Below, one piece after another: positions 33,452-49,352 of a DNA stretch of 49,352 bases. The notes beneath the pieces are model-generated. The model was given only the letters and a program-made list of their open reading frames with translations. It did no database searches and was not told the origin of the DNA. A program made the position numbers and the translations under genes. This stretch comes from Flavobacteriaceae bacterium (lineage in GTDB: Bacteria > Bacteroidota > Bacteroidia > Flavobacteriales > Flavobacteriaceae): positions 1-49,352 of the forward strand of contig JAHEMY010000004.1 in assembly GCA_024643425.1 (NCBI GenBank), read 5' to 3'. The first letter of the stretch is position 1. Every line of letters begins with the position of its first letter.

Positions 33452-34390
33452 ATGCTAGACGTCAAAATAAAATCTTTCTCTTATTCAGAAAAGGAAGTCC
33501 TTCGCGATATATCCTTCAATCTTAAAAGAGGAGATCACTTAGCCGTCTTAGGGGAAAGTGGATGTGGAAAATCTACCTTGTTGCATGTGATTTATGGGCT
33601 CCTCGACCTAAACGAAGGTTCAATTTCTTGGGGGGAGAAGCCTTTACTCGGCCCTAATTTCAATTTGGTCCCTGGAGAAGATTTTATAAAATTAGTCGCT
33701 CAGGAATACAACGTAATGCCTTTCACCACGGTGGCAGAAAACATCGCTACCTATTTACCGCGATTGGATGCGGCCCAAGACACTATGCGCGTAAATGAAT
33801 TGCTCGAAGTAGTCGAATTAGAAGAATTTTCCAGCGTAAAAGTAAAAGACCTTAGTGGTGGTCAAAAACAGCGCGTCGCACTCGCTAAAGCACTTGCAAA
33901 GAAACCTGAACTGCTGTTACTTGATGAACCTTTCAGCAACATCGACACATTTCGGAAGAACAAACTCCGAAGAAGTCTTTTTGGGTATCTTAAAAAAAAC
34001 AATGTTTCCTGTATTACTGCGACCCACGATGCCGAAGAAGCTCTTGCATTCTCAGATCAAATAGTAATTTTAAAAGATGGTATGATTGAAGCTTATGGCG
34101 AACCCCAAGCAGTTTACCAAAACCCAAAAACATTCTACCAAGCCGGATTTTTTGGTGAATCTTCATTAATTCCTAAAGGCATCTTATCTGAAAAGGAACA
34201 AATAGTTTTTCCAAATCAACTTGTTTTATCTGCAAAAAAAACTCCTTTAAAGGTTCAAATAACCAAGAGTTATTTTAAAGGAAGTCATTATCTCATCATG
34301 GCAAAATTTGAAGAAATCGATGTTTTCTTTAATCATAGCGATTGTTTAGCTTCGGAAGCCACTTATTATTTAAGATTTTTGAAAAATTAA
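33452..34390 (+). CDS. Orphan ABC transporter ATP-binding protein
   Basis: A 312-residue cytoplasmic ATPase. Walker A GESGCGKST (residues 34-42), the signature LSGGQ (134-138), Walker B LLLLDEPF and the switch ATHDAEEA are all present, so it should hydrolyse ATP. The sequence resembles the importer-type (PotA/CysA-like) group, and the C-terminal 80 residues after GFFGESSLIPKG may form a small regulatory domain. No permease or binding protein gene is beside it, so the transported substrate is unknown. It has its own promoter. Confidence 0.88.
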   Translation: MLDVKIKSFSYSEKEVLRDISFNLKRGDHLAVLGESGCGKSTLLHVIYGLLDLNEGSISWGEKPLLGPNFNLVPGEDFIKLVAQEYNVMPFTTVAENIATYLPRLDAAQDTMRVNELLEVVELEEFSSVKVKDLSGGQKQRVALAKALAKKPELLLLDEPFSNIDTFRKNKLRRSLFGYLKKNNVSCITATHDAEEALAFSDQIVILKDGMIEAYGEPQAVYQNPKTFYQAGFFGESSLIPKGILSEKEQIVFPNQLVLSAKKTPLKVQITKSYFKGSHYLIMAKFEEIDVFFNHSDCLASEATYYLRFLKN

Positions 34391-34416
34391 AGCTAAATTT
34401 ATGCTTTTGGGAATCC

Positions 34417-37221
34417 ATGGTAATGCGACTTTACATTTTTTCTTTCCTTTTTTATATTCTTCCAATAATTTCAACCGGTCAAGAATTACCTCCCGTAATC
34501 AATTACTCTGCTGAAGTATACGGAGCGGGGAATCAAAATTGGATGATCACTCAGTCCAAAGAAAATTTTATTTATGTTGCTAACAATGCCGGTATTTTAG
34601 AGTTTAATGGCTCTAATTGGGCCTTATATCCAACTCCAAACGAAAGTATTATGAGGTCGGTTAATGCCATTGGAGATCGAATTTACAGTGGTTTTTATAT
34701 GGATTTTGGGTATTGGCAAAGAAATGACTTTGGAGTGTTGAAATATACTTCATTAAGTGATCTTCTTTCGATACAGCTTATAGAAGACGAGCAATTTTGG
34801 AATATTTTCCACTATCAAAAATGGGTGTTGTTTCAGTCGTTAAACCGAATAATAATCGTTAACCCTGAAACCCTTGAAGTCAATATTATTGAACCTGATG
34901 GCTTAATCACTAAGATGTTTCAATTAAATGGTGAGCTATTTTATCAAGTCTATGGAGAAGGTTTATACACCTTAAAAAATGGGGAAAATTTAATCCTTGA
35001 TGATTCTGAAATTGCTCGCACGGTTCGGTTCGTTGGAATTTGTAGTATCAACAATAACATAGCTTTCATAACTGAAAACCAAGGTGTTTTTCTACTAGAG
35101 AATCAAGAATTAATAGCATGGGAAGCAGCCGTCAATGATATTATTTCTAATACAACCATTTATAGTTCACTCCAAAAAATGAATGGGGATCTTTTATTAG
35201 GAACAATTTCTAATGGTGTAATACATATTGATACATCGGGCAATAGACTGTATGAAATTGATCAAACGAATGGTCTCCAAAACAATACTGTTCTCAGTCT
35301 TTTTGAAGATACGAACAACAACATTTGGATGGGCTTGGATAACGGCATTGACTGCATGAATATCTCATCTCCCATTAATATCTTATTTGAACAACAAGGC
35401 AGATTGGGAACGACCTACACTTCAGAGGTGTTTAAAGATCATATTTACTTGGGAACCAATCAAGGTCTTTTTTATCGTTTGATGAACTCAAATGAACCAT
35501 TTAAACTTATTCCAAATACCGAAGGGCAGGTATTGTCATTAAATATTATTGATGAATCCCTTTTTTGCGGACATAATTTGGGAACATTTATTATTGAGGA
35601 CAATCAAGCTATTAAAATTTCAGAGGTTCTTGGAACATGGGATATAAAAACGATTCCGGAGAGGCCAGATCTTCTGCTGCAAGGAAATTATGACGGTCTG
35701 TACCTTCTTTCCAAAATAAATGGAACATGGAGTTTTGATAAAAAAATCGTTGGTTTTGATTATTCCTCCAAACACTTTGAGCTGGCTTCCAATAAAAAGG
35801 TTTTAGTAAGTCATGAATATAAAGGAGTCTTTGAGATTAACTTATCTGATGATTATTCCCGAGTTATTGACTTTGAGAAAATCACTTCCCTGAACCGTGG
35901 AATACATGCAGGTTTACAAAAATTCGACAACAATATTTATTACACCAACTCCGAAGGTGTATTTAAATCGGAATTAAGTCCCATTGATTTTAAATTGGTC
36001 CCTGAATTAAGTGTTTTGCTTGAAAACAATGAGTATAGTTCAGGAACTATGATAAGTGACGACTATAATCGATTATGGTTTTTTACGAAAAGTAATCTAA
36101 TCGCCGTGTCTAAGGACAATATTGATGAATCCTATAAAATAGAAAAAATCTCACTTCCGAATTCATCCCGAAAACAACTGGATGGGTATGAAAATATTAC
36201 GTTTACCACCAAAAGCACTTTCATTTATGGAAATTCAAGTGGGTACCTTTTTATAGACCTAGAGAAATTTGAACCTAAGGTTTTTCATGTTCTTTTTAGT
36301 CGTATTACTGCTTCTCAAAATAATGGAACTATGAAAGTTTTACCACTCAAAGAAGGCGGTAATCTGGATTATAAAATGAAAAATTTCACTTTTGACTTTA
36401 GCGTGCCAGTTTATGACAAATATCTACTAGCATCCTATCAATATCGCATTCCACCTTTTCAGGACTCTTGGAGTCCTTGGACTCAAAATTCTTCTTATTC
36501 AGTAAAAAATCTAACACCCGGGGAATACACTTTTGAAGTAAGGGCGAAAATTAACGATGAGCTTTTAGAAGATGTTTTGAAATACAAATTTGTGATTCTA
36601 AGTCCTTGGTATCTTTCAAATGCAGCATATGTAATCTACTTCATCACTTTTGTTATTATTCTCTTCCTGATAGATAATGCCTATAGAAATTATTACAAGC
36701 AACAAAGGGACCGCCACTTAATTCAAAAGACCAAAGATTTAGAGTTAAGGGAATTAGCTACTCAAAAGGAAATTATAGAACTAAAAAATGAAAAGCTTAG
36801 TCATGAAATCGAAGCAAGAAATAGAGAGCTCGCTATTTCGACGATGAATATGATTAGCAAAACATCTACACTCAATTCTTTAAAAGAACAATTAATCGAC
36901 TTTAATGAAGACAACAAACTTAAACCTGTAATTGGTAATATTAATAAGATTATTAACAACAAAAAGGATTGGGAGTTTTTCGAAAAAGCATTTAATCATG
37001 CCGATAAAAAATTCTTCAAGAAATTAAAAGAAAGACATCCTGAACTAACCCCAAATGATTTGCGTTTATGTGTATATCTGAGGCTTAATTTAACTTCTAA
37101 AGAAATTGCCCCATTACTTAACATTTCCCATAGAAGTGTTGAAATTAAAAGATACCGACTTAGAAAAAAACTTGATTTAGAACGAGATACTAATCTAAAC
37201 GACTACTTCATCAACCTCTAG
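34417..37221 (+). CDS. One-piece transmembrane PUL regulator (propeller, Y_Y_Y, LuxR HTH)
   Basis: A 934-residue regulator. After a signal peptide (MVMRLYIFSFLFYILPIISTG) comes an extracytoplasmic sensor with beta-propeller repeats (to about 660), a Y_Y_Y triple-tyrosine domain (about 667-728, SWSPWTQNSSYSVKNLTPGE), one TM helix (about 738-757), a coiled coil (765-830) and a C-terminal LuxR-type helix-turn-helix (about 870-922, LTPNDLRLCVYL, SKEIAPLLNISHRSVEIKR). No histidine kinase or receiver domain is seen. It sits just upstream of susC and likely senses glycan in the periplasm and acts on the locus. ATG 34417 (or 34423) follows a TAAATTTA box at 34394-34401; an earlier in-frame ATG lies inside the ABC gene. 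Confidence 0.88.
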   Translation: MVMRLYIFSFLFYILPIISTGQELPPVINYSAEVYGAGNQNWMITQSKENFIYVANNAGILEFNGSNWALYPTPNESIMRSVNAIGDRIYSGFYMDFGYWQRNDFGVLKYTSLSDLLSIQLIEDEQFWNIFHYQKWVLFQSLNRIIIVNPETLEVNIIEPDGLITKMFQLNGELFYQVYGEGLYTLKNGENLILDDSEIARTVRFVGICSINNNIAFITENQGVFLLENQELIAWEAAVNDIISNTTIYSSLQKMNGDLLLGTISNGVIHIDTSGNRLYEIDQTNGLQNNTVLSLFEDTNNNIWMGLDNGIDCMNISSPINILFEQQGRLGTTYTSEVFKDHIYLGTNQGLFYRLMNSNEPFKLIPNTEGQVLSLNIIDESLFCGHNLGTFIIEDNQAIKISEVLGTWDIKTIPERPDLLLQGNYDGLYLLSKINGTWSFDKKIVGFDYSSKHFELASNKKVLVSHEYKGVFEINLSDDYSRVIDFEKITSLNRGIHAGLQKFDNNIYYTNSEGVFKSELSPIDFKLVPELSVLLENNEYSSGTMISDDYNRLWFFTKSNLIAVSKDNIDESYKIEKISLPNSSRKQLDGYENITFTTKSTFIYGNSSGYLFIDLEKFEPKVFHVLFSRITASQNNGTMKVLPLKEGGNLDYKMKNFTFDFSVPVYDKYLLASYQYRIPPFQDSWSPWTQNSSYSVKNLTPGEYTFEVRAKINDELLEDVLKYKFVILSPWYLSNAAYVIYFITFVIILFLIDNAYRNYYKQQRDRHLIQKTKDLELRELATQKEIIELKNEKLSHEIEARNRELAISTMNMISKTSTLNSLKEQLIDFNEDNKLKPVIGNINKIINNKKDWEFFEKAFNHADKKFFKKLKERHPELTPNDLRLCVYLRLNLTSKEIAPLLNISHRSVEIKRYRLRKKLDLERDTNLNDYFINL

Positions 37222-37468: not shown

Positions 37469-40400
37469 ATGAAAAGAGTCTTATTCTTTACGTTATTATT
37501 AGTATTTATTTCTTCTTCGATCTCGGCTCAGACCTTTTCTGTGAAAGGACAAATTATTGACGGTTCAAGTAATTCGCCATTAATGGGTGCAACTGTTCTG
37601 CAAAAAGGCACTTTTAATGGAACAACCACAGATTTTGATGGTCAATTTTCTTTAGATGGTGTAAGCGCAGGGAATACATTAGTGATTTCTTACATCGGCT
37701 TCATCAATCAAGAAGTTGTAGTGACATCCGACAAAGACCTTTCCATAACACTCAAAGAAGATATTGCTTCTTTGGATGAAGTGATTGTGATTGGGTATGG
37801 TACTCAAAAGAAGAAAGAAATTACAGGTGCTGTGTCGGTAATATCGAGTGCGACGATTGAAGAGCTTAAACCTGTTCGTATTGAACAAGCGCTGCAAGGG
37901 CAAGTTGCAGGTGTACAAATTACAACGCAATCCGGATCTCCCGGAAGTCGTTCTGACATCCGCATACGAGGAATTTCAACAAATGGTGATAACCAACCGC
38001 TTATACTAGTGGATGGGAATGTGATTGAGGACTTAAGTGTTATTAACCCTGCAGATATTGAATCAATAAATGTTTTAAAGGACGCCACAGCCGGTATTTA
38101 TGGTGTGCGTGCTGCAAATGGAGTAATCCTTATTACTACGAAAACTGGGCGAAAACAAATGCCTTTGACCTTGGAATATGAAGCTTATGGTGGTTTTCAA
38201 GAAACAACACGTAAGCTGCCAACCTTAAATGCCACTGAATACGGTCTCCTTATCAATGAAGCATTCGTAGCGAACGGAGAATCTCCTGTTTATACGAATA
38301 CAGCTTCCTTAGGTGTGGGCACCGACTGGCAAGATGAAGTGTTTACGAAAGCACCAATTATAAATCAAAGTTTTACTTTAAAAGGGGGGACTAAAAAGTC
38401 TACCTATTCCGGAGGAGCCTCTTTAATAACACAAGATGGTATTGTTGGGGGTAGCAAGGCCAACTTTACGCGATATACGTCAAGAATAAATTTTAGCACC
38501 GAAGTATTAAAAAAATTAAAATTAAACACCAGCCTTCTCTATACAGGAACTACCCGAAGAACGCTTGCAGAAAACGGAATCGGTTCTGTGCTCTATAATG
38601 CATTAAATATGAACCCCGTTTTAGGCGTAAGTGGAAATAACATGGGATTTTCAAGGGCAGAAAATCTCCCGATCGAAGTTATTAATCCATTGGCCCAAAT
38701 TGCTACCACTTTTAATCGAACTAAAGTGGATAAAATAAGTGGCGTTTTTGGAGCAGAATATTCAATTCTAAAGAATTTAAGTGCACGGGCAAATTTTCAA
38801 TGGAATTATGCCGAAGTTAAAAACCGATTCTACTCACCGATAGCCGATTTTGGTGTAGAGGGTGTTGCCGATAAAGTATTTGATCGATTGGATGTGAACT
38901 CTTTGGTTGAAGAAGAGCAATTTTTTAGAGATTACACCTTCGATGCTTTTTTAACGTATACAAATACCTTTGGCGACGCACATAATGTGAATTTGCTGTT
39001 AGCTACTTCCGTTTTTAAAACTACCGGTGACTTTTACGGTCAAACAGGGATAAACCTGCCGGATAAGCCATTTGCAGAACTTGAACTTAGCGATGCAGAA
39101 ACCATTACGAACAACTATATCAATGTGAGTAATCGCGTTTTTGATTCTAGACTGCTTTCATACTTTACAAGATTACAATACGACTATAAGGGAAAATATT
39201 TGATGTCGGCCATGCTAAGAAGGGATGGTTCTACCAGTTTTGGACCTAATAATAAATTTGGCTATTTCCCATCCTTCTCGCTGGGATGGATCACTTCTGA
39301 AGAATCGTTCTTGTCCGACTCTAAATTTATCAACTTTTTAAAGCTTAGAGGTTCCTATGGAATAATTGGTAATGATCGAATTGGCGCCTTTCGATTTGAA
39401 TCGCTTCTTAGCGGTGAGGGAGTCTATGTATTCAACAACACTTTAAATTTTGGTACCGCTATTGGAGTTATATCCAATCCCGATATCAAATGGGAGGAGC
39501 AAGTAACCATGGATGTCGGAGCAGATATGCGCTTTTTAAACAATAGGTTGAGTGTCGAAATGGATTATTTCAATCGAGAAACCCGAGATCTATTACTTGT
39601 AGTACAAACTTCTGGAACAACCGGTTCAACCGCTCCAGGGTCAGGAAACCCTACTGCCAATGCAGGAACTGTTAGGAATAGAGGTTTTGAATTTTCGGTA
39701 GGTTTTAAACAAGAATTTTCAGAAGACTTTTCATTCGGAGTGAACTATAATGTTACAACGCTCGACAATGAGGTATTAAAGGTCAATAATGGAATTGGTT
39801 ATGAAGTGGGTGGTGCTTTTGGTATTGGCCAGGATCCTCCTGCTCGTATGGAAGAAGGTTTTCCTTTGGGATATTTCTATGGGTATAAAACACAGGGTAT
39901 TTTTCAAACCCAAGAAGAGGCGGATAATGCCCCATCACAAATTGCATTGGGTGCTCAAGCTAGAGCAGGTGATTTGCGTTTTGCCGATGTCAATGGCGAC
40001 GGTGTGATAACCACTGCCGACAAAACCTATATAGGAGACCCTATTCCGGAAGTGACCATGGGATTAAACCTTTCATTTGAGTATAAAAGTTTGGATTTTC
40101 AATCCTACTTCTTAGCGTCATTAGGAAATGAGATTGTGCGTAATTATGAAAGAAACGATCGATTTACAAACCGTACCACCTATTATTTAAATCGATGGAC
40201 GGGCCCAAATTCAACGAATGAATATCCTAGAGTAACCACAGGGGCTACCTCAAATCTCGTGTTTTCAGATTTTTATGTAGAAGATGGCTCTTTCTTGAGA
40301 GCACAAAACATGCAGTTGGGATATAGTTTGAGTCAGAAATCGTTGGACCGACTTGGAATCGACAAATTGCGGTTTTATTTTTCGGTAAGTAATGTATTTA

Positions 40401-40525
40401 CCTTGACAAAATATAGAGGGTATGATCCCACATCGTCTAGTGGCGCTCCGATTGGCAGCGGATTTGACCAAGGGTTCTATCCTACTCCCAGAACGTATTT
40501 ATTAGGTGTTAATTTCAAAATTTAA
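37469..40525 (+). CDS. SusC/RagA family TonB-dependent outer-membrane transporter
   Basis: A 1018-residue outer-membrane importer for oligosaccharides, driven by TonB. It has a signal peptide (ending ISAQ), a carboxypeptidase-D-like domain (VKGQIIDGSSNSPLMGATV, residues about 24-95), a plug with QALQGQVAGVQITTQSGSPG and DATAGIYGVRAANGVILITT, and a beta-barrel ending in the aromatic LLGVNFKI. It opens the locus and pairs with the SusD gene that follows. The 247-nt upstream gap is AT-rich and has no exact TAnnTTTG box; AATTTTTG near 37380 is the closest, so activation by the upstream regulator is plausible. Confidence 0.95.
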   Translation: MKRVLFFTLLLVFISSSISAQTFSVKGQIIDGSSNSPLMGATVLQKGTFNGTTTDFDGQFSLDGVSAGNTLVISYIGFINQEVVVTSDKDLSITLKEDIASLDEVIVIGYGTQKKKEITGAVSVISSATIEELKPVRIEQALQGQVAGVQITTQSGSPGSRSDIRIRGISTNGDNQPLILVDGNVIEDLSVINPADIESINVLKDATAGIYGVRAANGVILITTKTGRKQMPLTLEYEAYGGFQETTRKLPTLNATEYGLLINEAFVANGESPVYTNTASLGVGTDWQDEVFTKAPIINQSFTLKGGTKKSTYSGGASLITQDGIVGGSKANFTRYTSRINFSTEVLKKLKLNTSLLYTGTTRRTLAENGIGSVLYNALNMNPVLGVSGNNMGFSRAENLPIEVINPLAQIATTFNRTKVDKISGVFGAEYSILKNLSARANFQWNYAEVKNRFYSPIADFGVEGVADKVFDRLDVNSLVEEEQFFRDYTFDAFLTYTNTFGDAHNVNLLLATSVFKTTGDFYGQTGINLPDKPFAELELSDAETITNNYINVSNRVFDSRLLSYFTRLQYDYKGKYLMSAMLRRDGSTSFGPNNKFGYFPSFSLGWITSEESFLSDSKFINFLKLRGSYGIIGNDRIGAFRFESLLSGEGVYVFNNTLNFGTAIGVISNPDIKWEEQVTMDVGADMRFLNNRLSVEMDYFNRETRDLLLVVQTSGTTGSTAPGSGNPTANAGTVRNRGFEFSVGFKQEFSEDFSFGVNYNVTTLDNEVLKVNNGIGYEVGGAFGIGQDPPARMEEGFPLGYFYGYKTQGIFQTQEEADNAPSQIALGAQARAGDLRFADVNGDGVITTADKTYIGDPIPEVTMGLNLSFEYKSLDFQSYFLASLGNEIVRNYERNDRFTNRTTYYLNRWTGPNSTNEYPRVTTGATSNLVFSDFYVEDGSFLRAQNMQLGYSLSQKSLDRLGIDKLRFYFSVSNVFTLTKYRGYDPTSSSGAPIGSGFDQGFYPTPRTYLLGVNFKI

Positions 40526-40583
40526 ACCGATGAAAAAGTATACAATTTTGCAAATAACAGGTATTGCTAGACAAATAAAGAAC

Positions 40584-42071
40584 ATGACTCAAATAGATAA
40601 AGTAAAGAAATTAACCGTCTTATTTCCCATCATATTAATACTCTTCTATTCTTGTAGTGATGATTTTGTGAATGTCAATTCAGAAAACCAAAACTCAGAA
40701 ACTTATTTCAATACGGAAGAGGATTATCAAAATGCGCTCATAGGCGCCTACGATTTACTTCAATCGACCTACCTCAATGTTATGATGGGAGAAATTGCTT
40801 CTAGCAATACACTAGCTGGGGGTGAAAGTGCAACAGATGTCGTAGGGATACAACAAATAGATGACATGATCCATACCCCAACCAATGAACAACTAAGAAA
40901 TGTCTGGAGTTGGATGTACGCAGGAATAAATAGGGCTAACTATATCTTAGAATTTCAAAACAATATCGAATTTCCTAACAAGGCTAGTGTTTTGGCGCAA
41001 GCAAGATTTTTAAGAGCATACTATTATTTTGAGCTTGTTAAATGGTTTGGCGATGTGCCACTAGCGGTCGATCAAAGAATCTTGTTTGGTACCCAATTTG
41101 ATTTAGATCGAACTCCAACATCGGAAATCTACACCCAATTGGAATTAGATTTAATCTATGCAGCCGATAATCTTCCGTATATGCAACCGGAGACCGGTAG
41201 AGTAACTAAAGGTGCTGCACAGGCGTTATTGGGCAAAATATACCTCTATCAAGAAAAATATCCACAAGCTGCGAGCATTCTAAGCGAACTTATAAATAGT
41301 GGTCCTTATGATCTTGTTACCGACTATAGCACCCTATTCGAAAATGATAATGAAAATAACATAGAATCTGTTTTTGAAGTTCAATATTCTGATGAAGAAG
41401 GTGCGGGATTTGGATGTCTACAATGTAGTGAAGGAAATGTGGCTGTAGGGTTTAATGGCCCGAGAAATTTTAATGGTCCTCTATTCGAATCAGGTTTTAG
41501 TTTTAATGTCCCAACACAAGAAGTCTATGACCTCTTCGAAGAAAATGATGCTAGAAAGGATATTGCCATTTTGAATATTGAAAAGTTTGCTTTGGAAAAC
41601 CAAGATTATAATAATGGTTCCGGAGTGAGCTGGACAGAGGGATATGAACACACCGGGTTTTATAATAGAAAATATATTCCTCGACAAGGAGATTCTAATA
41701 TAGGGGACCAAAACTTAACAAACCCTAATAACTACAGGGCTATTCGTTTTGCAGATGTCTTATTAATGGCTGCTGAAGCACATCACTTTAATGGAAATGA
41801 CGGCCTTGCTTTGCAATACCTCAATAGAGTTCGACTGAGAGCCGGGTTAAATGAAATCTCAGTTGGCGGAAATGAGTTAACCAATGCTATCTATTTAGAG
41901 CGAAGGTTAGAACTGGTTGGAGAAGGACATCACTTTTTCGATTTAGTGCGAACTGGTCGAGCGGCAAATGAGATACAAGGATTTACAGCAGGTAAAAATG
42001 AATTATTCCCAATCCCTGAAATAGAAATACAACTTACAGGTAATCGTTGGGTGCAAAACCCAGGATATTAA
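40584..42071 (+). CDS. SusD/RagB family surface glycan-binding lipoprotein
   Basis: A 495-residue lipoprotein that covers the SusC pore and binds the glycan. The lipobox is ILFYSCSDD. The N-terminus NSENQNSETYFNTEEDYQNA, the LRAYYYFELVKWFGDVPL helix and the C-terminal YLERRLELVGEGHHFFDLVR and LFPIPEIEI segments are SusD hallmarks. The start at 40584 gives a 23-residue signal; an ATG at 40530, 4 nt after the SusC stop, would add an unusually long n-region but cannot be excluded. The gene is cotranscribed with susC. Confidence 0.94.
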   Translation: MTQIDKVKKLTVLFPIILILFYSCSDDFVNVNSENQNSETYFNTEEDYQNALIGAYDLLQSTYLNVMMGEIASSNTLAGGESATDVVGIQQIDDMIHTPTNEQLRNVWSWMYAGINRANYILEFQNNIEFPNKASVLAQARFLRAYYYFELVKWFGDVPLAVDQRILFGTQFDLDRTPTSEIYTQLELDLIYAADNLPYMQPETGRVTKGAAQALLGKIYLYQEKYPQAASILSELINSGPYDLVTDYSTLFENDNENNIESVFEVQYSDEEGAGFGCLQCSEGNVAVGFNGPRNFNGPLFESGFSFNVPTQEVYDLFEENDARKDIAILNIEKFALENQDYNNGSGVSWTEGYEHTGFYNRKYIPRQGDSNIGDQNLTNPNNYRAIRFADVLLMAAEAHHFNGNDGLALQYLNRVRLRAGLNEISVGGNELTNAIYLERRLELVGEGHHFFDLVRTGRAANEIQGFTAGKNELFPIPEIEIQLTGNRWVQNPGY

Positions 42072-42080
42072 AATTATAAA

Positions 42081-43649
42081 ATGATGAAATCAACAACGAT
42101 TATAAAAACATTTTCCTTATTACTAGCAATCTTATTATTCCAAGGATGCAATAAGGATGAAAACGATTTGGACTTTTTGAATGATGTGGCAATTCCTTCA
42201 AATCTTGACTTACTTATTCAATTATCTCAAGACAATACCGGGACCGTTACATTAACACCTAGTGGGACCTCCTCTTCACTATTTCTATTAGATTTCGGAG
42301 ATGGGACAGAGGTTGTAGAAGTACAAACCGGAAATAGTATACAGCACGTATACCCTGAAGGCGTTTACACTGCCACGCTCATAGCAAAAAATATTAATGG
42401 TGAATCTTCAGAGCCATTTGAAGCTCCTGTAATAGTGTCTTTCTTACCACCACAAAATTTAGCCATTAACGTTTCACCGGTTGCGGGAGACAACTTTTCA
42501 ATATCGTTGTCCGCACAGGCTGACCTAGCTGTTGGTTTTGAAGTGTATTTTGGAGATGCCCCTGACGAACTTCCCACACCCTTAATGATTGGAGAGAGTA
42601 TTGTGCATACCTATCCTGCAGTCGGAAGCTATGAAATTAGAGTAGTTGCTTTAAGCGGAGGTGTCGAAACTTCGGAACTCACTGAAATTGTTGTAATCGA
42701 AAACCCTATTCTATTACCGTTAACCTTTGAGTCCGAAACCTTGGAATTCAACTTTATAAACTTCGGTGGAGGTTTCAGTACAAGAATCGACAACCCCGAT
42801 CCTTCCGGCATCAATACTAGTTCAAAAGTAGTGGAATTTTATAAGGAAGCCGGTGCAGAAGTTTTTGCAGGCAGTGTTATAGAACTTGGAGAACCCATGG
42901 ATTTTACAGAATTTCAATCATTTAAGATGGATGTGTGGTCCCCTATTGCGGGTAGTACGATAAAATTAAAAATAGAAAATGCTACTGACCCCAATATTGC
43001 GGCAGAAATAGATGCTATCACAACAACCACCAATTCTTGGGAGACGCTTTACTTTAATTTTGGAAATGCCGATTTAACTCAGGAATATGCTAAAATTGTA
43101 GTGTTTTTTGATTTTGGAAATTCTGGAAATGATGACTATTTCTATTACGACAATATTGCGCTATCTATTGCTCCCGGTAATGAAATTGCCTTACCGTTAA
43201 CTTTCGAAAATCCCGACCAAAACTTTACGATCAATGGTTTCGAAGGGGCAGAGTCAAGTTTAGAGTCCAATCCAGACCCGTCTGGGATTAATACGAGTTC
43301 AGTTGTTGTTCAAAGCATCAAAACTGTGGGTGCTCTATTTTATGCCGGTACCGCAATTCCTATAGAAACTCCTATTGTATTTGACACAACCGAAAGCATT
43401 CGCATGAAAGTTTGGTCCCCCAAAGTAGGGATTCCAATTAGGCTCAAACTTGAAAATAGTGGTGGTCAATTTGTAGAATTAGATGTAAACACTACTGTTT
43501 CCAATCAATGGGAAGAACTGGTATGGAACTTTTCAGGAATGAATACTGCCCCAGAATTCACTACCGTGGTTGTTTTCTTTGAGTTTATAGTTGACTTACC
43601 AGGGGATGGTAGCACCTATTATTTTGACGATATCGATTATGCCAATTAA
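42081..43649 (+). CDS. PKD-containing surface lipoprotein with two glycan-binding-like modules
   Basis: A 522-residue lipoprotein (lipobox LLFQGCNKDE) in the SusE/F position, 9 nt after susD. Residues about 28-205 hold two PKD-like domains (LDFGDGTEVVEV and VYFGDAPDELPT cores). Two copies of an about 150-residue beta-rich module follow (about 210-362 and 370-522), each starting LPLTFE, carrying NPDPSGINTSS, then VWSP, a WE.L.FNF strand and a final D(D/N)I. The fold looks like a beta-jelly-roll binding module. I infer that it binds the target polysaccharide at the cell surface; no catalytic residues are seen. Confidence 0.85.
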   Translation: MMKSTTIIKTFSLLLAILLFQGCNKDENDLDFLNDVAIPSNLDLLIQLSQDNTGTVTLTPSGTSSSLFLLDFGDGTEVVEVQTGNSIQHVYPEGVYTATLIAKNINGESSEPFEAPVIVSFLPPQNLAINVSPVAGDNFSISLSAQADLAVGFEVYFGDAPDELPTPLMIGESIVHTYPAVGSYEIRVVALSGGVETSELTEIVVIENPILLPLTFESETLEFNFINFGGGFSTRIDNPDPSGINTSSKVVEFYKEAGAEVFAGSVIELGEPMDFTEFQSFKMDVWSPIAGSTIKLKIENATDPNIAAEIDAITTTTNSWETLYFNFGNADLTQEYAKIVVFFDFGNSGNDDYFYYDNIALSIAPGNEIALPLTFENPDQNFTINGFEGAESSLESNPDPSGINTSSVVVQSIKTVGALFYAGTAIPIETPIVFDTTESIRMKVWSPKVGIPIRLKLENSGGQFVELDVNTTVSNQWEELVWNFSGMNTAPEFTTVVVFFEFIVDLPGDGSTYYFDDIDYAN

Positions 43650-43653
43650 AAAA

Positions 43654-45303
43654 ATGAAAATGAAGTACACTTATTTATTTTTGACCCTTATTTCAATGGT
43701 AGCTATAAGTTTTGGCTGTCAAGAAGACGATACTTCGTTTGGACCTGTAATAGCGCCAACAAACTTAGTCGCTAACATCGAAGTTGCGACAGATCAATCT
43801 GGAAATGTGACGGTGAACCCATCGGCAGATAATGCTATAACGTTTCACGTCTTTTTCAAAGAAGATTTAGACCCAGTAGTCGTTGGCAATGGCGAAACTG
43901 CAGCATTCAGATATACCGACTCCGGTCAATATTCACAAGAAATTGTAGTGATTGCTTATGGCTCAGGAGGTGCTTCCAGCTCTATAACAGAATTAATTGA
44001 CTTGGATGTTATTTTAATCATAGATCAGAACGTTTTGCTGCAACTAGCAGGGCAAGTGGGAGAAGGAAAGAGATGGGTTTGGGATTCCTCAAATGCCGGT
44101 CACTTTGGCGTGGGAGATCCAGCAGTGAATTTTCCGAATTTCTTCAGTGCAGGTGCAAATCAATTGGATCCTTGTCTTTATGACGATGTACTAGAATTTA
44201 AATACGACAGTGAGGGTAACTATACCTATTCCCTAGAAACTTCCAATGCGACTTTTATGAATTGGGCGGAAGTTAAACGATTCTTTCCGGATGCCACTCC
44301 TCAGGAATTTGTTGATGAATGTCGCGACTTAACTGGTATTCTAAGTTTTGAAACCGATTTTGTTGTGATTGAAGATGCCATCACCGGCACTTCAAACCTA
44401 ACTGTTAACAACAGTACCCTTTCTTATTGGTCTGGGGCTTTCTCCTATGAAATCGTCGAGTTAACCGATAGTAAACTCATTGTTAGAGGATTACAAGACC
44501 CTTTTGATCCGCCGGGAGCGCAATTAGCATGGTATCATACATTCGTGCCTGAAGGTGCGCCAGCACCAATTTGCGGTGCAGAGACAGGGCAAGTGGGAAA
44601 TGGAAATAATGACATATTGGTCTGGGCAGAAGAGTTTGATTCGTCCGGCGCTCCTTGTTCGGACAACTGGTCGTACGACCTTGGAACTGGGAGTAATGGA
44701 TGGGGGAATAATGAAAAACAATATTATACAGATTCTAGTTCTAACGTAATTGTCGAAGGCGGAGTCTTAAAAATTACAGCCAAAGCAGAGTCATTTATGG
44801 GAAGTAATTATACCTCCACTCGTTTGAAATCTAATTTAAACTTTGACTTTACTTATGGAAAAGTAGAAACACGAGCAAAATTACCAACAGGCGGAGGGAC
44901 GTGGCCTGCTATTTGGCTATTGGGATCAGATTATTTAACAAATACATGGCCGGGATGTGGAGAAATCGATCTTCTTGAACATATAGGAAACCAACAAGAC
45001 GTTATTTTCTCAACCCTTCATTATCCAGGAAATTCTGGAGGAAATGGTGTAACTGAATCGATTAATGTGGCCGGTGTCTCGGATGAATTTCACGTTTATA
45101 GTGTGGATTGGACTCCCTCGGAAATTAATTTTTCAGTAGATGGGAACGTTTACCACACCTTCAATAATAATGGCAATTTGCCATTTAATAACGATTTCTT
45201 CTTAATTGTGAATGTAGCCATGGGCGGCAATTTTGGAGGAAACATAGATCCCTCTTTTGTAGCATCAACCTTAGAGGTAGATTACATAAGAGTGTATCAA
45301 TAA
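43654..45303 (+). CDS. GH16 endo-beta-1,3-glucanase (laminarinase-like) lipoprotein
   Basis: A 549-residue surface lipoprotein (lipobox ISFGCQEDD). Residues about 25-125 are PKD-like and similar to the start of the preceding lipoprotein. Residues about 128-300 form a domain with GHFGVGD (149) and LYDDVLEF (about 174). The GH16 catalytic domain spans about 325-549, with the active-site motif Glu437-x-Asp439-x-x-Glu442 (EIDLLE), the bulged form found in laminarinases, and WPAIWLLG. It should cut laminarin or mixed-linkage beta-glucan internally. The ATG at 43654 lies 4 nt after the previous stop; further upstream in-frame ATGs fall inside that gene. Confidence 0.92.
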   Translation: MKMKYTYLFLTLISMVAISFGCQEDDTSFGPVIAPTNLVANIEVATDQSGNVTVNPSADNAITFHVFFKEDLDPVVVGNGETAAFRYTDSGQYSQEIVVIAYGSGGASSSITELIDLDVILIIDQNVLLQLAGQVGEGKRWVWDSSNAGHFGVGDPAVNFPNFFSAGANQLDPCLYDDVLEFKYDSEGNYTYSLETSNATFMNWAEVKRFFPDATPQEFVDECRDLTGILSFETDFVVIEDAITGTSNLTVNNSTLSYWSGAFSYEIVELTDSKLIVRGLQDPFDPPGAQLAWYHTFVPEGAPAPICGAETGQVGNGNNDILVWAEEFDSSGAPCSDNWSYDLGTGSNGWGNNEKQYYTDSSSNVIVEGGVLKITAKAESFMGSNYTSTRLKSNLNFDFTYGKVETRAKLPTGGGTWPAIWLLGSDYLTNTWPGCGEIDLLEHIGNQQDVIFSTLHYPGNSGGNGVTESINVAGVSDEFHVYSVDWTPSEINFSVDGNVYHTFNNNGNLPFNNDFFLIVNVAMGGNFGGNIDPSFVASTLEVDYIRVYQ

Positions 45304-45323
45304 TGCTCAGTTAACTGTATAAA

Positions 45324-47606
45324 ATGAAACTAAAATTATTTCTTTTAATCGTCGTGTTAACAGCCTGTAACCAGAGCTCTTCAATACATACGAACGACGA
45401 AAACCAAGCTTCATCTCACATAGATCGTCGCGTTGATTCCGTTTTATCATTAATGACGCTGTCTGAAAAAATAGGTCAAATGAATCAATACAATGGCTTT
45501 TGGGATGTTACCGGACCGGTTCCCGCTGAAGGTGACGCTGCAAAAAAATATGATCATTTGAAAAAAGGTCTAGTCGGTTCAATGCTAAATATAAAAGGTG
45601 TCGAAGAAGTGCGTCGCGTTCAAAAAATTGCCGTTGAAGAAACTAGACTTGGAATTCCATTAATTATTGGCTTCGACTGTATTCATGGATATAAAACAAT
45701 TAGCCCGATTCCTCTTGCAGAAGCTGCAAGTTGGGACATGGAAGCTATTCGTAAATCTGCGGAAGTGGCAGCTGCAGAAACAGCAGCATCAGGTATTAAC
45801 TGGACCTTTGCTCCCATGGTTGATGTTTCTCGAGATGCACGTTGGGGGAGAGTTATGGAAGGCGCTGGAGAAGATCCCTATTTAGGAAGCAAAATTGCCG
45901 TTGCTCGAGTGAAAGGATTTCAAGGAGAAGACCTTTCCGCCACCAATACAATAGCAGCTTGTGCAAAACATTTTGCAGGATATGGCTTTTCAGAATCAGG
46001 AAAAGATTATAACACTGTAGATGTTGGTACCTCTACACTATACAATACTATTTTTCCTCCTTTCATCGCGGCAAAGGAGGCGGGGGTCGCTACCTTCATG
46101 AATGCGTTTAACGAGCTAAACGGAGTTCCTGCTACTGGCAATAAATTTTTACAAAGAGATGTCCTCAAAGGGGATTGGGACTATAATGGTTTTGTGGTCT
46201 CGGATTGGGGCTCCATTGCTGAAATGATTCCTCATGGCTATGCAGAGAATGGACGCGATGCTGCCCTTAAGGCAATTCATGCCGGTTCAGATATGGATAT
46301 GGAATCTTATCTGTATGTGGCAGAATTAGAGAGTTTGGTCGAGAATAAAAAAGTAGATGTGGCCCTCATTGATGATGCAGTAAGAAGAATTCTGAAGTTA
46401 AAATTTGAATTAGGTCTATTCGACGATCCTTATAAATATTGTGACCTTGAACGAGAAAAATCAGTGGTTAATTCCAAAGAAAATCATGATATCGTTTTAG
46501 ATGTGGCTCGAAAATCTATTGTCTTACTGAAAAACGAGGGGCAATTGCTTCCATTGAAAAAAGAGGGTCAAAAAATCGCATTAATCGGAGCCTTAGCGGC
46601 AGATAAAAATAGTCCATTAGGAAGTTGGCGATTAGCAGCAGAAGATAATTCAGCTATTTCTGTTTTAGAAGGTATGCAGCGCTATCCCGCCAATGAATTG
46701 ATGTACGCCAAGGGCGCCGATGTTACCATTGGGGAAACGGCCTTTATTTCAGAAGTGACTATAAATACCAATGATAAAAGCGGTTTTCAAGAAGCGCTCA
46801 ATATTGCGAAAAAAGCCGATAAAGTAGTGATGGTACTTGGGGAAAACGGATTTCAAACCGGTGAAGGAAGAAGTCTTGCCAATTTAGACCTTCCGGGAGT
46901 ACAGCAGGAATTGCTTGAAGCCGTTTTCAAAGTAAATCCAAACATTGTACTTGTTTTAAACAACGGGAGACCACTTACCATTAATTGGGCCGCAGAACAT
47001 ATTCCAGCTATCGTAGAAGCATGGCATTTAGGAAGCGAAAGTGGACATGCTATTGCTCAAGTTTTGTATGGCGATTATAACCCGAGTGGCAAGTTGCCCA
47101 TGTCCTTTCCTAAAAGTGTGGGTCAGATTCCGCTTTATTACAACCATAAGAATACGGGAAGACCTTCTATTCCAGAACCTGGGTTGGTTTTTTGGTCACA
47201 TTATGGTGATGAGAGCAATGATCCCCTGTACGCGTTTGGCCATGGTTTAAGCTATACACATTTTGACTATTCAAACCTCCAAATCGAAAATAATTACCCT
47301 TCAAAAAAATCCATTACCGTCAAGGTTGACCTTCACAATAGTGGAAATTATGATGGTAAAGAAGTTGTCCAATTATACTTGCATGACTTGTTCGCTTCTG
47401 TTACTAGACCGGTTAAAGAATTAAAAGGACTGGAAATGGTCTCATTGGCGAAAGGAGAATCAAAAACAGTGGAATTTGTTCTAACCGATAAAGAACTCGG
47501 ATTTTTCGATAATGAAGGAGCATGGGTGATCGAGGAAGGAAAATTTGAAGTTTTTGTGGGAGGTAGTTCTCAAACGACGAATATGGCAGCCTTTGAAATT
47601 AAATAG
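45324..47606 (+). CDS. GH3 beta-glucosidase lipoprotein (BglX-like)
   Basis: A 760-residue lipoprotein (lipobox VVLTACNQS) that would release glucose from the ends of oligosaccharides. The GH3 (alpha/beta)8 domain covers about 30-365 with KHFAGYG and the nucleophile Asp294 in FVVSDWGSI. The alpha/beta sandwich (about 390-620) and a fibronectin-III-like domain (about 680-755, LHNSGNYDGKEVVQLYLHD) follow. Next to a GH16 endoglucanase it fits laminarin breakdown, with beta-1,3 activity inferred rather than shown. It follows GH16 by 20 nt and belongs to the same operon. Confidence 0.94.
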   Translation: MKLKLFLLIVVLTACNQSSSIHTNDENQASSHIDRRVDSVLSLMTLSEKIGQMNQYNGFWDVTGPVPAEGDAAKKYDHLKKGLVGSMLNIKGVEEVRRVQKIAVEETRLGIPLIIGFDCIHGYKTISPIPLAEAASWDMEAIRKSAEVAAAETAASGINWTFAPMVDVSRDARWGRVMEGAGEDPYLGSKIAVARVKGFQGEDLSATNTIAACAKHFAGYGFSESGKDYNTVDVGTSTLYNTIFPPFIAAKEAGVATFMNAFNELNGVPATGNKFLQRDVLKGDWDYNGFVVSDWGSIAEMIPHGYAENGRDAALKAIHAGSDMDMESYLYVAELESLVENKKVDVALIDDAVRRILKLKFELGLFDDPYKYCDLEREKSVVNSKENHDIVLDVARKSIVLLKNEGQLLPLKKEGQKIALIGALAADKNSPLGSWRLAAEDNSAISVLEGMQRYPANELMYAKGADVTIGETAFISEVTINTNDKSGFQEALNIAKKADKVVMVLGENGFQTGEGRSLANLDLPGVQQELLEAVFKVNPNIVLVLNNGRPLTINWAAEHIPAIVEAWHLGSESGHAIAQVLYGDYNPSGKLPMSFPKSVGQIPLYYNHKNTGRPSIPEPGLVFWSHYGDESNDPLYAFGHGLSYTHFDYSNLQIENNYPSKKSITVKVDLHNSGNYDGKEVVQLYLHDLFASVTRPVKELKGLEMVSLAKGESKTVEFVLTDKELGFFDNEGAWVIEEGKFEVFVGGSSQTTNMAAFEIK

Positions 47607-47711
47607 AACTAATGGCCGCAATAGTAAGAAGAATAAAATCCTATTTGTTGATTAAAGAGAGTTCAATTTTTCTCGTATTGATGAATCAAATAAAGAACAT
47701 TAACTAACACC

Positions 47712-48518
47712 ATGATTATGAAAAATTTTACTTGTCTCGTTATACTCCTAAGTTCAGCTTTAGGGTTTTCACAAAATTATCCCATTAATTTCGAAGAATC
47801 CGGTTTTGGCGCGGATTGGACATGGACTGTATTCGAAAATGAAACAAATCCTCCACTGGAGATTATTGCCAATCCTGATCCTTCAGGAATTAACACCTCT
47901 AGCACAGTTGCAAAATTTACTGCCTTGCAAGCCGGTATGCCATTCGCAGGAGTTGAAAGCATGCACGGATCCGATATTGGAACATTCAATCTTACCGCTG
48001 AAAATGCCATTGTAAGAATCAAAGTGTGGAAATCAGTTATTAGTGATGTGGGAATTAAATTTGCCACCCCTGCAGGTGCTTCTACAGGAGAAATTAAAGT
48101 GCCTAATACGTTGATTGATCAGTGGGAAGAACTTACCTTCGATTTTACCGGGGTTATTGACGAGCCTTCTTCCACAGGAATTGACCAAATTATCATTTTC
48201 CCAGATTTTGCAGCACGAACTTCTGATAATATTATTTATTGGGACGATATTCAATTTGGAGAGACATTAGGTCTTGGGGATAGTCCTATGAATTCACTTA
48301 TTTCATATCCAAACCCTGTATCCTCCGCTTGGAATGTTCAATGCGATGAACCTATCGTTAGCCTCACCTTGTTTAATATTTTGGGGCAAGAACTTTTTAA
48401 GACCTATCCAAATCAAAATTTCTACTCATTAAATACAAATTCATTTCAGTCTGGAATTTATTTGGCACGAATTGCCTCTAAACAAGGAAGCAAAGTGATA
48501 AAATTTATTAAAAACTAA
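47712..48518 (+). CDS. Secreted single-module binding protein with T9SS type A domain
   Basis: A 268-residue secreted protein. The signal peptide ends at LGFSQ. Residues about 22-185 form one copy of the NPDPSGINTSS module seen in the PKD lipoprotein and the next gene (FAGVES, VRIKVWKS, QWEELTFDF, IIYWDDIQ). The C-terminus (ISYPNPVSSAWNVQ to KFIKN) is a type A sorting domain, so it is released or attached to the surface by the type IX system. A second ATG two codons in could be the start. No enzyme residues are visible; a glycan-binding accessory role is inferred from the locus. Confidence 0.85.
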   Translation: MIMKNFTCLVILLSSALGFSQNYPINFEESGFGADWTWTVFENETNPPLEIIANPDPSGINTSSTVAKFTALQAGMPFAGVESMHGSDIGTFNLTAENAIVRIKVWKSVISDVGIKFATPAGASTGEIKVPNTLIDQWEELTFDFTGVIDEPSSTGIDQIIIFPDFAARTSDNIIYWDDIQFGETLGLGDSPMNSLISYPNPVSSAWNVQCDEPIVSLTLFNILGQELFKTYPNQNFYSLNTNSFQSGIYLARIASKQGSKVIKFIKN

Positions 48519-48549
48519 GCTCTTTTTGGAAGGCTTAAAACCATTTGCT

Positions 48550-49352
48550 ATGAAAAATATTATTTCTCTTTTTATTTTCTTGATCACATTAACTGTTAAT
48601 TCACAGGTCATTTTTGATTTTGAAGGAGCTCCTCCTGCATTTGGAGATTTCAATGGATCATTCACTCAGGTGATTGGTAATCCGGATCCAACAGGGGTGA
48701 ATACCTCAGCAAACGTTGCCGAAAATACTGTGCCAGCCAATGCTGCTTTTGCAGGAGTGAACATTCCTGTTTCCACAATAGACCTTTCCATAAATAAAGG
48801 TTTCACCATGAACGTTTGGTCTCCTCTGGTGAATACCCCCGTTTTATTAAAATTAGAAAGCACTACGGGTCTGCCGCAAGAAAGACTTGTAAATCTTACA
48901 ACCACAGGAGCATGGGAAGAAATAACATTCGATTTCAGTACCCTCGGAAATGAAACTTTCGATTCGGTAACGGTGTTTATGAATTTTAATCAAACCAACC
49001 CTAGTACGCAGGTTTATTATTGGGATAACTTAATTCAAGTGAGTCTTCCCCCATCACTCCCAATCACATTTGAAGGCGGTCAATTACCGACATTTGGTGA
49101 TTTCAATGGATCATTCACTCAGGTGATTGGTAATCCGGATCCAACAGGGGTGAATACCTCAGCAAACGTTGCCGAAAATACTGTGCCAGCCAATGCTGCT
49201 TTTGCAGGAGTGAACTTTCCTGTAAGTACCATTGACCTTTCAACCGACAAAGGATTTACCATGAACGTTTGGTCTCCTCTGGTGAATACCCCCGTTTTAT
49301 TAAAATTAGAAAGCACTACGGGTCTACCGCAAGAAAGACTTGTAAATCTTAC
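48550..49352 (+). CDS. Secreted multi-module protein, 3' end beyond the window
   Basis: An open frame of 267 complete codons without a stop, cut by the window end. The signal peptide (MKNIISLFIFLITLTVNSQ) is followed by one complete and one incomplete copy of the NPDPTGVNTS module (first about residues 20-160, second from about 172), with a spacing of 151 codons. The two copies are almost identical in DNA. It starts 31 nt after the previous gene and is probably part of the same operon. What follows the second module (more modules, an enzyme or a T9SS tail) cannot be seen. Confidence 0.88.
   Translation, partial: MKNIISLFIFLITLTVNSQVIFDFEGAPPAFGDFNGSFTQVIGNPDPTGVNTSANVAENTVPANAAFAGVNIPVSTIDLSINKGFTMNVWSPLVNTPVLLKLESTTGLPQERLVNLTTTGAWEEITFDFSTLGNETFDSVTVFMNFNQTNPSTQVYYWDNLIQVSLPPSLPITFEGGQLPTFGDFNGSFTQVIGNPDPTGVNTSANVAENTVPANAAFAGVNFPVSTIDLSTDKGFTMNVWSPLVNTPVLLKLESTTGLPQERLVNL
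48640..48899 (+). repeat. Near-identical in-gene repeat, copy 1
   Basis: Matches 49093-49352 at a shift of 453 nt (151 codons). By hand count about 16 of 260 positions differ, and most of these fall in 48763-48804; a 117-nt block at 48646-48762 is identical. Both copies are in frame and encode the binding-like module. Confidence 0.9.
49093..49352 (+). repeat. Near-identical in-gene repeat, copy 2 (runs to window end)
   Basis: Second copy of the repeat at 48640-48899; it continues to the last base of the window, so its true end is not visible. Confidence 0.9.

Follow-up and report, generated by a model that had tools for sequence, protein, structure and literature searches.

In the present study, one organism appears to place a known laminarin-binding module type on three different proteins. 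The window (the whole stretch of DNA that was analysed, 49,352 nucleotides from a Flavobacteriaceae bacterium) very probably encodes laminarin-capture modules of the 8QX6 type, carried by a lipoprotein in the SusE/F position and by two T9SS cargo proteins, both enzyme-free. Laminarin binding and the role of the T9SS-borne forms are what we infer from homology to 8QX6, the fold of the SE_m2 copy, the locus, and the export signals. By sequence and model, the module is a beta-sandwich CBM related to 8QX6, i.e., of a known kind, and its enzyme-free exported carriers are the least familiar part.

The locus lies on the + strand and runs in the order SusC, SusD, PKD-module-module lipoprotein, GH16, GH3, one-module T9SS protein, and tandem protein:

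37469..40525, + strand, SusC-like TonB-dependent transporter (Pfam Plug, 1.8e-20; CarbopepD_reg_2, 8.5e-20)
40506..42071, + strand, SusD-like protein, ORF as listed with an uncertain true start codon (Pfam SusD_RagB, 2.4e-31; SusD-like_3, 9.2e-24)
42081..43649, + strand, SusE/F-position protein with signal peptide, PKD region, and two modules (Pfam PKD, 6.8e-10, two stretches)
43654..45303, + strand, GH16 laminarinase-like protein, start inferred (Pfam Glyco_hydro_16, 2.1e-25)
about 43696-44580, + strand, SGBP-B-like unit, N-terminal part of the GH16 protein (7kv5, 1.7e-7; Z 21.1)
45324..47606, + strand, GH3 beta-glucosidase-type enzyme (Pfam Glyco_hydro_3, 1.3e-65; NCBIfam BglX above cut-off)
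47712..48518, + strand, enzyme-free T9SS cargo with signal peptide, one module, and type A tail (Por_Secre_tail, 7.2e-10; TIGR04183, 4.2e-12)
48550..49352, + strand, 5′ part of the multi-module T9SS cargo, start inferred; it continues past the window, with its tail at C157:51069-51278

SusC, SusD, a third surface protein, GH16, and GH3 stand in an operon-like run, by which the locus qualifies as a beta-1,3-glucan PUL. The operon context with SusC/D, GH16, and GH3 described in an earlier note on this DNA is thereby borne out, all genes being on the + strand. The signal peptide of the SusE/F-position protein, read by eye, carries Cys23 and is of the lipoprotein type. Upstream of SusC, at 34342-37221, lies a putative regulator-like protein (the label HTCS is a query name only), relatives of which sit near SusC in many related loci.

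Five copies of the module were located in the window:

42714..43169, + strand, copy 1 (SE_m1); its profile E of 6.0e-66 in its own genome is high by construction, the copy being in the profile
43191..43646, + strand, copy 2 (SE_m2), the copy chosen for modelling
47778..48260, + strand, copy 3 (T9_m1); carrier residues 31-181 match 8QX6, 5.2e-7
48607..49041, + strand, copy 4 (MM_m1); carrier residues 47-143 match 8QX6, 2.3e-4
49057..49352, + strand, copy 5 (MM_m2), cut by a scaffold gap; 94% DNA identity to copy 4

All five copies that the earlier note had described are thus present, with closely similar coordinates, and by their sequences they are not a chance resemblance. The in-window copies are 28.9-42.0% identical in protein sequence; only the tandem pair (48607 and 49057) stands out, with 89.7% in protein and 94% in DNA (over 254 bases, with a period of 453). 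Between carriers at the locus, identity ranges from 27.7 to 39.8%, with the single exception of MM_m4 and SE_m2, which are 62.5% identical. When the organism's own genome was searched with T9_m1, seven places were found, all in this locus (42786-50195; E 2.1e-110 to 0.0042), and the five-copy profile (A1) gave seven places in the same locus (E 1.1e-72 to 3.5e-32); neither search met a module outside it in the 201 contigs. As far as these searches reach in an assembly of 201 contigs (2.74 Mb, about 96% completeness), the module is dedicated to the beta-glucan locus, as had been proposed.

The nature of the module follows from its match to 8QX6. Against 177,635 PDB sequences, the five-copy profile matched 8QX6 at E 1.2e-17 over profile positions 3-152 of 154, the next chain standing at 0.52. 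A 43-row profile matched 8QX6 at 5.2e-26, followed by 1GUI (laminarinase 16A) at 0.011. Searched singly, each of the three carriers had 8QX6 on top (7.9e-6, residues 370-487 of the SE_m2 carrier; 5.2e-7; 2.3e-4), and sequence homology extends over the whole module. The structure prediction suggested in the earlier note gave a concordant answer. The AlphaFold2 model of SE_m2, one copy of the five (pLDDT 96.6, pTM 0.91), has a beta-sandwich fold like that of 8QX6, which came first in Foldseek (E 2.8e-8) and, at 27% sequence identity, in VIA-align 2 (143 residues aligned with an rmsd of 2.2; Z 18.1 against 13.0 for the runner-up). Lower-ranked fold matches include many carbohydrate-active proteins, with CBM11, CBM22, and CBM30 among several CBMs, as well as gingipain adhesin domains in Foldseek and the non-carbohydrate viral turret protein and complex I intermediates; since non-carbohydrate proteins occur there, these rows show a shared fold only.

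We take the X584 family of 8QX6 to be CBM102. Zühlke et al. (2024, Environ Microbiol) reportedly named CBM102 after work on a Christiangramia forsetii SGBP that has four CBMs, and reportedly described CBM103 besides it. The PDB entry itself, released in 2024, is titled 'Novel laminarin-binding CBM X584', and its molecule is a 'PKD domain-containing protein' of 165 aa. The laminarin-binding function proposed for the module is, therefore, supported by homology to 8QX6 in sequence and in the modelled fold.

The profile search that the earlier note recommended was silent in one part and informative in the other, Pfam giving no match below E 0.01 and the PDB sequences giving 8QX6. Neither Pfam nor NCBIfam holds a family matching the window copies below this E, which could be read as a sign that the module founds a CBM family of its own, without kinship to any described before; the 8QX6 match by sequence and fold contradicts this reading and makes it exceedingly improbable. 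The novelty that had been considered for the module accordingly did not hold, as the characterised CBM of 8QX6 was matched, an outcome that the earlier note had itself named as refuting. Matches to DUF4249, WxLIP_PGBD, UBP8, and EutL were weak and below cut-off, and were taken as chance. CBM4 (1GUI; Pfam CBM_4_9) has weak profile links to the module, namely the 1GUI match at E 0.011 and CBM_4_9 in 10 of the 43 wider members (best 5.3e-6); in contrast, SE_m2 and the other window copies lack a CBM_4_9 match, this model finding none of the five A1 modules at E <= 10. The same 43 members include one with CBM_35_2 (4.7e-6) and one each with BNR_4, Big_11, and NCBIfam Mep72.

Relatives bridge the distance to 8QX6. 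Its sequence matched 88 of 397 family genomes at E <= 1e-8; the source genome of 8QX6 was not found among these 397, the best identity being 72% (G308). The matching G308 protein, encoded between the SusD and GH16 genes, combines a PKD region with four matches to the module, one of them weak (the third, 4.5e-4). Its second module is 72% identical to 8QX6 and its fourth 56% identical to T9_m1. Similarly, the first module of G256 is 49% identical to SE_m1 and its second 55% identical to 8QX6. These mixed sets mean that window-type and 8QX6-type copies are neighbours in the same kind of surface protein. G392 (L157) has a module with 66% identity to 8QX6 whose carrier did not receive the PKD label; GH16- and GH3-like genes accompany SusC and SusD at that locus. 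Altogether, 8QX6-like modules lie on PKD-type proteins in two of the three fetched loci and within SusC-SusD-GH16 loci in all three.

The module occurs in 106 of 199 family genomes, own included (E <= 1e-5). A scan of species genomes confirmed at least 527 of 584 stretches, and the best 80 of these at least 527 were kept as related loci, a sample that leans towards close relatives of this locus type; genes were labelled by phmmer with the window's own proteins as queries. Within these best 80, the module is on a PKD-type protein in 71 loci, with one to five modules per carrier, some cut by contig ends. SusC-, SusD-, and GH16-like genes occur together in 64 of the 80, and in 50 of the 51 loci that are at least 20 kb long (L073 is the exception); the GH3-like label was given in 28 of the 80, and the module is on a GH16-type protein in three (L017, L042, L044). 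The highest number of modules among nine loci compared, seven, was seen in a 1424-residue SGBP (L123:6588-10859, - strand).

The N-terminal part of the window's own GH16 protein was considered as a further module copy and ruled out, being SGBP-B-like by sequence and model. It matches Bacteroides fluxus SGBP-B (7kv5) at 1.7e-7, and its model (pLDDT 89.9) aligns with that protein at Z 21.1 and an rmsd of 9.7 over 233 residues; the high rmsd probably reflects the orientation of two domains. By its entry title, 7kv7 is B. fluxus SGBP-B with laminaritriose. This binding protein, itself from a beta-1,3-glucan locus, is matched by the GH16 N-terminal part and not by the repeated module. A report on Maribacter GH16_3 enzymes gives, in the part consulted, a similar SGBP-B-type reading (PMC11345257). 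In Chitinophagaceae, Mucilaginibacter, and Pedobacter loci, a protein of about 305 residues with the SGBP-B-like unit is encoded by its own gene adjoining the GH16 gene.

The two exported carriers end in a C-terminal type A sorting domain, and the genome encodes a T9SS, as judged by SprA; the type A tail of this system was matched 67 times there. Hence, the view that the module is carried both by a lipoprotein and by T9SS cargo is upheld by Por_Secre_tail, TIGR04183, and SprA. T9SS type A cargo may be either released or kept anchored at the cell surface, so the secreted form proposed in the earlier note may be either. Relatives of the one-module T9SS protein were detected in 17 of 199 family genomes, own included (E <= 1e-25), some of them being the same module type inside larger proteins, e.g., the seven-module SGBP of G198. 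Among the best 80 of at least 527 loci, five T9SS-tailed carriers were labelled, probably an undercount, as the tail label came from one query. Eight relatives (L121-L128) were fetched for strong matches, not at random. T9_m1-type carriers were found in the stretches of L121, L122, L124, and L125 (the last cut by a contig end, with no tail seen); those of L123, L126, L127, and L128 held none as a separate gene, although L126 and L128 match the T9_m1 carrier elsewhere in their genomes. Phage records gave no match to the one-module T9SS protein. In the literature, screened mostly by title or opening of the abstract, no paper was found treating T9SS-borne laminarin-binding modules.

The tandem protein extends beyond the window, whose end is a scaffold gap of 100 N (C157:49353-49452) in a contig that continues to 64,028 bases. 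Past the gap follow a partial copy (C157:49455-49715), a full copy (C157:49746-50204), a cysteine-containing part, and then the T9SS tail. The last 121 bases ahead of the gap recur unchanged as the first 121 beyond it, and the two truncated copies may therefore represent a single one; as the gap also lies inside a near-identical tandem, the assembly was probably split or collapsed there. The 100 N are taken as a placeholder and not as the gap size. By sequence, the protein holds at least three distinct copies, and the corresponding protein of L121, gap-free there, has 1146 residues and five modules. Directly after the tandem protein lies a 286-residue T9SS-tailed protein (L009:9319-10179, i.e., C157:51318-52178), which, its tail aside, has no Pfam match above cut-off; relatives of it were seen in the L121, L122, L124, and L126 stretches, four of the eight that were fetched.

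A tree of 90 modules from 24 loci, built by a quick method with SH-aLRT support only, indicates exchange between carriers. The T9SS label needs 12 changes on it, against a shuffled mean of 23.9. A single origin of T9SS-borne modules is therefore not supported, the labels being clustered and yet far from one origin. The 12 changes imply an exchange of modules between exported proteins and those at the surface, and this movement suggests that they are used interchangeably. MM_m4 falls in a set of 12 rows with later SGBP modules (nine SGBP, three T9; SH-aLRT 99), and MM_m1 in one of 10 rows with exported modules, the five of L121 among them (support 98); MM_m1 bears the label 'other', its tail lying beyond the gap. 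8QX6 occupies a long branch, separate from the window copies; as it meets another long branch, its place is unsure. Its separate long branch and its 27% identity to SE_m2 mean that specificity may differ.

A possible, if doubtful, explanation is that one family serves different ligands, the SGBP copies binding the beta-1,3 chain and the T9SS copies another target, be it beta-1,6 branches, mixed-linkage glucan, the walls of algae, or the surface of the cell itself. The between-carrier identity of 27.7-39.8% (one pair at 62.5%) is consistent with such a division, as is the T9_m1 type standing in its own set of 11 rows (six T9, three SGBP, two other; SH-aLRT 100). This set joins exported modules with late modules of two SGBPs. 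However, the 12 label changes suggest interchangeable use, and MM_m4 is 62.5% identical to SE_m2. We consider it unlikely that some modules, above all those in tandem, have lost glycan binding and now serve as spacers or for adhesion. Near-identical tandem repeats also occur in stalks, and the gingipain adhesin domains and viral turret protein among the fold matches would fit this idea; the dedication to the locus, the recurring SusC/SusD/GH16 context, and the laminarin-binding title of the closest solved relative argue against it.

Under the preferred reading, that of laminarin capture by all three carriers, the PKD region of the SusE/F-position lipoprotein would hold its two modules away from the outer membrane, where they would bind laminarin near the SusCD transporter and the GH16 endo-glucanase. 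The GH16 protein would cut laminarin, SusCD would import the products, and GH3 would finish the degradation. For the single-module protein and the tandem protein (at least three modules), both enzyme-free and exported by the T9SS, the most likely role is to bind laminarin at the cell surface or just beyond it and to add capture capacity there. More tentatively, they might constitute a capture layer on or around the cell, either anchored or a diffusible 'sponge', which feeds SusCD or withholds laminarin from competitors, with recombination lengthening or shortening the tandem and thereby tuning avidity.

Laminarin is a storage sugar of algae. An excerpt of a study on Formosa laminarin PULs gives 5-15 Gt a year from diatoms (PMC6246565). 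Compared with 8QX6, the window modules are alike in profile (E 1.2e-17 and 5.2e-26) and fold (Z 18.1), and close 8QX6 relatives also stand in SusC-SusD-GH16 loci; they differ in the 27% identity of SE_m2 and in falling on a different tree branch, the place of which is unsure. At the level of the locus, the laminarin PULs of Formosa sp. Hel1_33_131 (PMC6246565) and the Bacteroides 1,3GULs (PMC7157763) share, according to the portions consulted, a SusC-type protein, a SusD-type protein, a third protein (PKD-domain protein or SGBP-B), and glycoside hydrolases. The same portion of the latter source states that Bacteroides uniformis SGBP-B binds laminarin (PMC7157763). In contrast to the present locus, enzyme-free T9SS-borne module proteins are not mentioned in those portions of either source (PMC6246565, PMC7157763). 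If the T9SS-borne enzyme-free forms bind laminarin, they would represent an external capture step beyond the SusCD-SGBP complex.
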